Assembly (NCBI RefSeq): GCF_900113175.1
Contig: NZ_FOOK01000005.1
Location: 62,001-126,000 of the forward strand
Source: Planifilum fulgidum
GTDB lineage: Bacteria > Bacillota > Bacilli > Thermoactinomycetales > DSM-44946
DNA: 64,000 nt
Direction of reading: 5' to 3'
Of the stretch, positions 10,747-13,279 are shown one piece after another (within the stretch, counting starts at the first letter, position 1; each line of letters begins with the position of its first letter). The notes under the pieces are model-generated. The model saw only the letters and a list, made by a program, of their open reading frames with translations. It made no database searches and was not told the DNA's origin. The translations under genes and the position numbers were made by a program.

Positions 10747-10828
10747 GGCATCAAAGGTTTCCCGGGCGGGAGGCGGAGGAGGTGCCGCTGACCGCGACGG
10801 GGGCGGGAAGCAGACACTCAAGCAAGGA

Positions 10829-10860
10829 AACCGGAGCGGAAATCCGCTCCGGTTTTTTTT
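10829..10860 (+). terminator. Rho-independent terminator of the kdd-kamABCDE operon
   Basis: A near-perfect 12-bp stem (AACCGGAGCGGA and complement) with a minimal AA-centred loop, followed by eight T residues. It ends the lysine operon. The rest of the 10747-11065 gap is AT-rich from about 10935 and holds no supported gene. Confidence 0.92.
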
Positions 10861-11065
10861 CTTTGCTTCCGCGAAAAATCGCGGGTCCCCTCTTGGATGC
10901 AAATCAACCTGGCTCAGGTCACCCGCCCGGTTCGAATATTGAATACTCGCGGCCTTTGTATTACATTACAATCGGACGGTGTTTATTAAATCTACAAGAC
11001 ATATACTTTGATATTCAATATTATACAGATATTTACAAACCTCCAATCTCCTAGAAACTCGGCCG

Positions 11066-13279
11066 ATGGATTGGACACCGCACAAAAAATTTAGGGCTGG
11101 GGCTGGATTCATGGAGCAGACAGTCAACACAACTGTCCGGCTTTCCCGCAAGGAGAAATATCGGAAAAACAGGACCTACCATCCGATCGTTTGGTTTTTG
11201 ATCGTCGGAACCGCCGTAACCCGCGTCGCCTCATTCATGAGCCTTCCGTTTCTGGCCATTCATCTTTCCGACAACCTCCATCTGAATTCCTCCATGATCG
11301 GCATCATCCTCGGCATGAGCGGCTTGACGGGTGCCCTGGGGGGCTTTTTCGGGGGGTACCTGTCGGACCGGTGGGGGCGCAGGCCGATCATGCTGATCGC
11401 CTTTGCGGCTTGGACCGGGGTTTTTTTCGGTTTCTGGCTCGCGGAACAGCCGCTTCACTTTTTGGTTCTGAACGGATTGAACGGCCTTTGCCGCTCGTTT
11501 TTCGAACCGACCTCCCAGGCCTTGATGGCCGATGTGTCGCGCCCCGAACAGCGCCTCCGCATCTTCAATTTGCGTTACGTCGCCATCAATGTGGGCATGG
11601 TGGTCGGCCCGGTGATTGGCTCCTATCTGTATTATCTCGTCGGCACCCAGGTTTTTCTTTACACCGGAACGGTGTATGCGATATACCTGTTCTTCCTTTT
11701 CAGGATCCTGCTCAAATATCGCCGGGATGCGGCCAAGCGCGGCGGCGAGCACATTCTTTTTTCCGAATGTCTGGCGGTGATCCGGCGGGATCAGGCCCTG
11801 GGGTATTTCGTACTGGCCGGGATTCTGTTTTTTACCGTATACGCCCAAATCGATTCTTCCCTGCCGATTTTTCTCGCGCAATTGGGAAAGAGCCAGCTGT
11901 ATCCCGCCCTGCTCGCCATCAATGCGGGAATCGTGGTGCTGTTTCAGTATTTCGTTTCCCGGTGGACCGAAAAAAAGAGCATTCTGACGAGCCTGCTGGT
12001 CGGAAACTCCTTTGTGATATTTGGATTTTTCACCTTCGCGGCCGGTGAGGAACCCTCCGTTTTCATCACGGGAATCATCCTGATCACCTTCGGGGAGATT
12101 CTGATTTTTCCCGTATCCAGCCTGTTTATCGACCGGCTGGCGGACGATCGGCTGCGCGGGACCTATTATGGCGCCAACCAGTTTTCCCAGTTGGGGCTGT
12201 TTCTGGGGCCGCTGATTGGCGGGTGGCTGCTGGAGGTTGTCGGCGGGCGCAATCTGTGGTGGCTGATGGTGCTGGCCACCCTTTACATCACCTGGTTTTA
12301 CGCCCTGGGATACCGGAAGTACGCGCGCAAAAAGGGTTACAACCTGGTGGACGTCATCCGGCGCGTGCTGGTGGATCTGCGCATGATGGCGCTGTTCAAA
12401 GCGCTGGCTAAATCCGTTCCGATCTTGACGCTGATTGTCCTGTCGGTCCTTCTTTCCTATCGATTCTTTGAAGCTCGGCTGGAAGCCCCGCCAAGAACCC
12501 AGACGGTTCAGGTCCAAATCTCTCCGGAAGCCAATCTGTTCGAGATCGGAAAACAATTGGAGAACAAACAGCTGATTCACAATTACATCCTGTTTCCGCT
12601 CTATGCCACGGGTTATTCGCTCTTCAAGCAGGTGTACATACAGCCCGGCGTGTACCAGATTCCGCGGGAGATGGGCCTGGAGGAAATCATGCGCACGCTC
12701 TCCAAAGGCACCTACCAGGTGGTGATTCCGGAGGGGGCCACGGTTTCCGACATCGCGGACATTCTTTCCTATTACGGCGTCCCGAAGGAAGAGTTTTTAC
12801 GGGCCGCCAACAGGAAGGATTATCCCTTCGATTTTGTCCAACAGATTCCGGATCACCGTCCCTACCGCCTGGAAGGGTATCTGCAGCCGGGGAAATATGA
12901 ATTCCGCGTCGACGCATCGGCGAAGGAGATCGTCGAGACCATGCTGTACCGCTTTGACGAGATGCTCGACGAAAAAACCCGAAAAAAATTGGAAAAAGGG
13001 AATCTCAGCATCGACCAGTGGGTGATCGTCTCCTCCCTGATTGAACAGGTGGAGCCCCATCCGTCCAACCGCCCCTATGTGGCCCGTCTCATGTATGATC
13101 GATTGAATCGGGGGCAGAAATTGGGAATCTGGTCGATTCCCCAACCCTATTCGCGGATCAAGCGCTATTACACGTCCTTGTATCCGGGCCTTCCTCCCGG
13201 TCCGATCAACAATCCGGGGAAGGATGCCCTGCAGTCGGCGATCAACCCCGCGGACAGGCAATCTCCCCCGCAGGAATAA
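11066..13279 (+). CDS. Fusion protein: major facilitator transporter plus MltG/YceG-like endolytic transglycosylase domain
   Basis: 737 residues. Residues about 40-420 form a 12-helix MFS transporter with motif A GYLSDRWGRRP after helix 2. A thirteenth helix near 449-468 (PILTLIVLSVLLSY) leads to an extracytoplasmic MltG-like domain, about 475-730. This contains the LysM-like part (VVIPEGATVSDIADIL), the EGYLQPGKYEF segment, the putative catalytic Glu660 in SSLIEQVE, and GLPPGPINNPG at about 708-718. MltG cleaves nascent glycan strands beside the divisome/elongasome. Compared with stand-alone MltG, the QTDPTVIYG-like segment is replaced and the C-terminal YLYFV...H.F tail is missing. ATG at 11111 is an alternative start; neither has a strong ribosome binding site. 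One continuous frame, no stop or frameshift at the junction. Confidence 0.85.
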   Translation: MDWTPHKKFRAGAGFMEQTVNTTVRLSRKEKYRKNRTYHPIVWFLIVGTAVTRVASFMSLPFLAIHLSDNLHLNSSMIGIILGMSGLTGALGGFFGGYLSDRWGRRPIMLIAFAAWTGVFFGFWLAEQPLHFLVLNGLNGLCRSFFEPTSQALMADVSRPEQRLRIFNLRYVAINVGMVVGPVIGSYLYYLVGTQVFLYTGTVYAIYLFFLFRILLKYRRDAAKRGGEHILFSECLAVIRRDQALGYFVLAGILFFTVYAQIDSSLPIFLAQLGKSQLYPALLAINAGIVVLFQYFVSRWTEKKSILTSLLVGNSFVIFGFFTFAAGEEPSVFITGIILITFGEILIFPVSSLFIDRLADDRLRGTYYGANQFSQLGLFLGPLIGGWLLEVVGGRNLWWLMVLATLYITWFYALGYRKYARKKGYNLVDVIRRVLVDLRMMALFKALAKSVPILTLIVLSVLLSYRFFEARLEAPPRTQTVQVQISPEANLFEIGKQLENKQLIHNYILFPLYATGYSLFKQVYIQPGVYQIPREMGLEEIMRTLSKGTYQVVIPEGATVSDIADILSYYGVPKEEFLRAANRKDYPFDFVQQIPDHRPYRLEGYLQPGKYEFRVDASAKEIVETMLYRFDEMLDEKTRKKLEKGNLSIDQWVIVSSLIEQVEPHPSNRPYVARLMYDRLNRGQKLGIWSIPQPYSRIKRYYTSLYPGLPPGPINNPGKDALQSAINPADRQSPPQE

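Follow-up and report, generated by a model that had tools for sequence, protein, structure and literature searches.

What might a protein do that joins an MFS transporter and an MltG-type lytic transglycosylase domain in one chain? Such a gene lies in the window analyzed here, the whole stretch of 64,000 nucleotides taken from a Planifilum fulgidum contig, where an earlier note made from the letters alone had drawn attention to it. We examined the architecture of the protein, its distribution and descent, and the state of its presumed active site, and we weighed the possible functions against these data.

Protein architecture and the transporter half

The frame comprises 737 codons counted from its first ATG and has no internal stop, as the earlier note had stated (Table 1). 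Translation probably begins at the ATG at 11111 (MEQT..., 722 aa), since the orthologue in genome G002 begins there and since the first 30 residues of the structural model are of very low confidence. The domain search that the note had proposed matched both halves, namely, Pfam MFS_1 at residues 46 to 374 (E = 1.9e-51) and Pfam YceG at residues 483 to 730 (E = 5.6e-45; 154.4 bits versus a curated cutoff of 32.4). The YceG profile was covered at positions 1 to 246 of 275, the final 29 being missing. The NCBIfam MltG profile TIGR00247 matched residues 456 to 730 (E = 3.6e-22) with 78.9 bits, under its curated cutoff of 103.4. In the full-length AlphaFold model (pTM 0.54), the 12 MFS helices are followed by a linker helix (residues 427 to 437), a long 13th helix (residues 441 to 472), and then the MltG domain. 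The 12 MFS helices, motif A, and linker helix described in the note are present, and the alignments confirmed the retained LysM-like part, Glu660, and GLPPGPINNPG. The alignments and a retention table also confirmed that the C-terminal tail and the Q-x-D segment (QTDPTVIYG) are lacking.

By standard topology, MFS helix 12 ends on the inner side of the membrane. With helix 13 crossing the membrane, the MltG half would sit outside the cytoplasm, as known for stand-alone MltG. The linker and helix-13 region has homologous counterparts, by alignment, in clade members without the MltG half.

Table 1. Features of the fusion gene and its flanks (positions in the window)
Feature	Position	Strand	Basis or remark
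Terminator-like hairpin with T-run, strong, closing the upstream transcription unit	10824..10859	+	Consensus match only
Sigma-70-like promoter candidate, weak	10996..11024	+	
MFS-MltG fusion gene	11066..13279	+	Open frame; Pfam MFS_1 and YceG; orthologues in 9 other genomes
MFS half, 12 helices, DHA1 multidrug-exporter type, motifs A and C (residues 40-423)	11183..12334	+	
Linker helix and 13th helix, presumably transmembrane (residues 427-472)	12344..12481	+	Model, alignment
LysM-like part of the MltG half, putative peptidoglycan binder (residues 478-557)	12497..12736	+	Alignments, fold match
YceG catalytic-type subdomain, truncated: no Q-x-D-A-T strand or C-terminal strands (residues 600-728)	12863..13249	+	
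Glu660 codon GAA	13043..13045	+	Matches catalytic E218 of E. coli MltG and E242 of B. subtilis MltG; present in 9/9 fusions
GLPPGPINNPG motif	13187..13219	+	Conserved with stand-alone MltG
Hairpin, candidate terminator, right after the stop codon	13279..13308	+	-21.3 kcal/mol, z -2.95

Terminator-like hairpins flank the gene on both sides, suggesting that a single-gene transcription unit is plausible. The note had called the gene monocistronic with its own terminator; the hairpins speak for this but fall short of proof, the T-rich tail of the downstream one being only modest. The promoter candidate is graded weak because its region holds two matches against 1.6 expected by chance.

The MFS half contains motif A (GYLSDRWGR) and an antiporter-type motif C (VGPVIG). 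Its sequence matches in the PDB were NorA and LmrP and its top Foldseek match was LmrP (TM(target) 0.85), so that both sequence and fold are nearest to the multidrug exporters of the LmrP, NorA, and MdtH type. No named exporter subfamily (MdtH or YdeE) was reached, the best NCBIfam hits scoring far under their equivalog cutoffs (101.8 bits versus 582 and 99.3 versus 469). With the DHA1 exporters (LmrP, NorA, MdtH, YdeE, and MdfA) the protein thus shares 12 helices, motifs A and C, and its best sequence and fold matches, whereas it adds a linker, a 13th helix, and a presumably extracytoplasmic domain of about 260 residues.

In the usual AmpG recycling route, the product is used by AnmK, the anhydro-MurNAc kinase. 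This enzyme is absent from all ten full-fusion genomes, which disfavors a recycling scheme in which the domain would cut 1,6-anhydro-muropeptides and the MFS half would import them. In addition, AmpG was not among the best 25 NCBI families matching the fusion protein, and the catalytic groove is eroded, as described below. We consider such recycling highly improbable, even though AmpG is an importer supplied by lytic transglycosylases (PMC8820737). That Gram-negative route resembles the fusion in linking a carrier functionally to glycan cleavage but does so through separate proteins, and it had been overlooked in the claim that no system couples the two (PMC8820737). A further suggestion, that transport of a wall precursor or muropeptide is tied to cutting, stood in part: the likeness of the MFS half to multidrug exporters and the lack of the kinase alongside full fusions weaken muropeptide uptake, while export coupled to cutting may still apply.

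The MFS half might instead carry a wall-related lipid or precursor, as a flippase or in uptake, with the MltG domain sensing or gripping the nascent strand at that site, comparable to LplT/Aas. Lipids are flipped by MFS proteins such as LplT, LplT-Aas fusions in a single ORF exist in some bacteria (PMC11416262), and MltG works on membrane-anchored nascent strands (PMC8820737). Nevertheless, the closeness to multidrug exporters in sequence and fold, the antiporter motif C, and the wide occurrence in the class of MFS relatives without an MltG domain make this reading quite improbable. Among fusions of MFS proteins with envelope enzymes, LplT-Aas is the nearest precedent, since it likewise holds both in one frame, but its Aas part is cytoplasmic, is a lipid acyltransferase, and is not homologous to MltG.

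Distribution and origin of the fusion

Full fusions were found in 10 of the 42 genomes of the order (G000, G001, G002, G004, G005, G006, G010, G011, G012, and G027), so that the search in related genomes suggested by the earlier note was positive. In G010 the fusion is split across two contig ends, and in G002 it is on the same contig as L003. A pattern search of genome contigs with patterns from close relatives had the G002 MAG as its sole find. The fusion was seen unbroken in other genomes as well, among them G005, which consists of a single contig, and a sequencing or assembly artifact was thereby ruled out. Beyond the order, neither the class sample (399 genomes) nor the phylum sample (398 genomes) yielded a fusion at a threshold of 1e-75; there, the MFS half alone matched. 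Independent fusions elsewhere in Bacillota were also considered; there were none among the YceG matches listed for 299 genomes, the frames of which measured 336 to 430 aa, although divergent ones may escape such a search.

A stand-alone mltG gene, which the note had wanted sought, is present in the same genome (G000:C1:146112-147002). The other full-fusion genomes also have one, except for the 67%-complete G002, in which only the fusion was found, and replacement of the stand-alone enzyme by the fusion was thereby ruled out. Many genomes of the order harbor two separate mltG genes in tandem (L044, L045, L047, L048, L050 to L053, and L055), and the duplication is old, as the two copies form distinct tree branches in one family. 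Open frames of 747 to 780 aa at tandem mltG loci, taken as candidate di-MltG proteins, were rejected because the fetched loci showed separate ORFs. One tandem copy in G021 (L068, 45-1097) lacks the catalytic Glu (SLVVKEG, not SLIEREG) and is a probable inactive MltG paralogue. Weak YceG matches (E of about 1e-5 to 1e-7) limited to the first 64 to 79 profile positions were seen in G017 (C1:805107, 3084089, and 3463794) and G018 (C8:124825-125316), the LysM-like match in G018 occurring twice in succession in one frame; reuse of the LysM-like part in these other proteins is possible.

The genome also encodes a stand-alone MFS paralogue with 49% identity to the MFS half. For the stand-alone MFS paralogue L007/L008, dS between G000 and G001 is 0.08, against 0.4 to 0.6 for the fusion and mltG, which may reflect recent transfer, gene conversion, or strong codon bias.

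Phylogenies of the two halves supported a single origin. In the MFS tree, the fusions, a partial form, and forms ending shortly after helix 13 (TM13-only) make up one clade (100/100 support) outside the stand-alone MFS paralogues, and in the MltG tree the fused domains constitute one branch (100/100) apart from every stand-alone MltG included. The six TM13-only forms nest inside the fusion clade, and a constraint uniting the full fusions as a single clade was rejected (p-AU 4.5e-5); topology and test together ruled out that the TM13-only forms are ancestors predating the fusion. The partial form, G026:C35 (L018), lies at a locus syntenic with that of the G027 fusion and retains nothing of the MltG half but its LysM-like part. 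G026 carries both derived forms, its TM13-only gene being on C25 (L080). A tblastn search downstream of the truncated genes turned up no trace of the missing catalytic part. Every member of the clade has kept the MFS half, which is the constant part of the protein. The fusion has a single origin, in an ancestor belonging to the order. Given the nested short forms and the rejected constraint, the data are most simply explained if the MltG half was joined on once, was later lost entirely in one lineage, and was separately truncated in G026:C35. In the literature searched, no report was found that connects MltG or YceG to a fusion with an MFS protein; both halves belong to known families, and their combination in a single chain, which forms a clade of its own with secondary losses, appears to be undescribed.

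Fold and active site of the MltG half

The MltG half was modeled with a pLDDT of 93.7, and its significant Foldseek matches were all MltG structures (E = 1.2e-15 to 4iiw, the Listeria MltG Lmo1499). Structural alignment gave a Z score of 22.0 to 4iiw (rmsd 11.6, 252 aligned) and of 18.2 to 2r1f (rmsd 3.4, 182 aligned). In the structure check proposed in the note, the fold proved to be kept, but the cleft looks incomplete, the alignments showing groove elements to be lost. In the model, there are no strands after residue 614.

Column-by-column comparison showed that Glu660, Ser657, L-P-P-x-P, N-P-G, and the LEGY..P..Y stretch are kept in all nine fusions compared. All nine have lost the residues at Glu+2 and Glu+8, where the stand-alone enzymes have Glu, as well as the YNRL Asn, the Asp and Ala of the QxDAT strand (Q-V-D-A-T), the second Tyr of YNTY, and the C-terminal tail with its strands. 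Overall, 18 of the 54 positions of the catalytic part that are conserved in stand-alone copies are lost in every one of these fusions. Of the 41 polar positions in this part, only three are invariant, Glu660 among them. The G011 fusion (L015) has lost even more of the cleft than the others. Compared with stand-alone MltG/YceG (E. coli, B. subtilis, and Listeria Lmo1499), the fusion thus shares the membrane helix, the LysM-like part, the catalytic-type fold, the Glu, and GLPPGP but has 12 preceding MFS helices, forms a branch of its own, and is devoid of the groove elements listed. In the crystal structure of M. abscessus MltG, the putative groove consists of the catalytic Glu together with Phe332, Tyr392, Phe393, Val394, and Phe404 (PMC11533991). 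Judged by position rather than by alignment to that structure, the equivalents of Tyr392, Phe393, Val394, and Phe404 would fall in the tail missing here. The loss of the QxDAT strand, Glu+2, Glu+8, the Asn, and the C-terminal strands makes efficient glycan cutting unlikely, and the fused domain probably has little or no catalytic activity.

Lytic transglycosylases can manage with one acidic residue. The domain could accordingly be a divergent but true cutter, in which Glu660 has kept its glycan-cleaving activity, perhaps on another or a shorter substrate, in mechanical or spatial coupling to export, for example, by clearing the wall at the exit or by releasing a strand or the exported compound. 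The invariance of Glu660, Ser657, LPP.P, and NPG among the fusions, the intact fold, and a dN/dS of 0.06 to 0.11 for the catalytic part within the genus are in line with this reading. Set against it are the groove elements gone from every fusion, the further reduced cleft of the G011 protein, the catalytic part being the most relaxed, and the tolerated loss of the domain in one lineage, and we regard it as rather unlikely. A related reading, one machine in which a reshaped one-Glu domain holds or cleaves the nascent strand where the exporter opens, coupling export with wall opening, we likewise deem unlikely.

Both halves of the fusion are under purifying selection, with a dN/dS of about 0.1: within the genus, the values are 0.08 to 0.10 for the fused MltG half, 0.09 to 0.13 for the MFS half, and 0.10 for stand-alone MltG, while the MltG half in the G005/G006 pair gave 0.17. 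Between genera, identity of the fused domain is 46% in the LysM-like part, 50% in the middle part, and 44% in the catalytic part, versus 57, 54, and 64%, respectively, for stand-alone MltG of the same genera, and in the tree the fused domains are 1.3 to 4.2 times further apart than the stand-alone copies. Taken together, these values suggest that the MltG half is constrained, yet that the constraint on its cutting part is relaxed, the catalytic part having eroded most. The fast evolution of the fused domains and the two independent truncations in other genera would also fit a neutral accident, a fusion made once whose MltG half has no role and is drifting toward loss. However, the dN/dS near 0.1, the 81 to 93% identity within the genus of the window, the uninterrupted frames in nine genomes, and the high-confidence fold render this decidedly improbable.

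A proposed docking module on an exporter

We favor the reading that the protein is a DHA1-type exporter bearing an MltG-derived domain that docks it to the wall or to PBPs and is not an efficient cutter, a proposal that in our estimation is as apt to be right as wrong. In a single event in an ancestor belonging to the order, an exporter of this type would have captured a duplicated MltG gene at its C terminus. Transport, probably proton-driven export of amphiphilic compounds, would fall to the MFS half, while helix 13 would thread the chain through the membrane, placing the MltG-derived domain outside, facing the wall. With its MltG fold, its putatively peptidoglycan-binding LysM-like part, and its catalytic Glu retained but its substrate groove apparently gone, the domain most likely holds the exporter beside nascent glycan strands or PBPs.

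Three observations lead us to favor docking: the constancy of the MFS half, the binding of MltG proteins to nascent strands and PBPs (PMC8135044), and the finding that in E. faecalis growth is supported by the LysM part of MltG, not by catalysis (PMC12288455). In particular, B. subtilis MltG binds PBP1 and PBP2B, and inactive E. coli MltG still reduces PBP transpeptidation (PMC8135044). That the fold, the LysM-like part, and the Glu are kept while the substrate groove is not argues for docking rather than cutting, and the stand-alone mltG gene covers the enzymatic job. Conversely, a pure dock needs no Glu, whereas Glu660 is invariant in nine fusions, with Ser657, LPP.P, and NPG kept as well. 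We also counted the gene neighborhood against docking. Within the genus, the fusion gene has a lysine 5,6-aminomutase-like pair on one side and an M14-type carboxypeptidase on the other (named by inspecting translations), but a mechanical comparison across genera, with ORFs picked by length, found no conserved operon partner, so that no pathway is pointed to. Of the two roles offered in the earlier note, an inactive MltG platform serving as a scaffold fits better: although the catalytic Glu is kept in 9/9 fusions, the remainder of the family-invariant active-site environment is gone from every one.

Automatic annotation from one half alone would conceal the fusion. If docking is true, the protein would be a way for a bacterium to pin an efflux pump onto its growing wall. 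Should the domain have retained cutting activity, the protein would be a transporter that carries its own wall cutter, of which we know no other case. Either way, the fusion clade offers a natural experiment that asks what in MltG remains important once the groove is gone, a question raised by the finding in Enterococcus that the LysM part is critical (PMC12288455).
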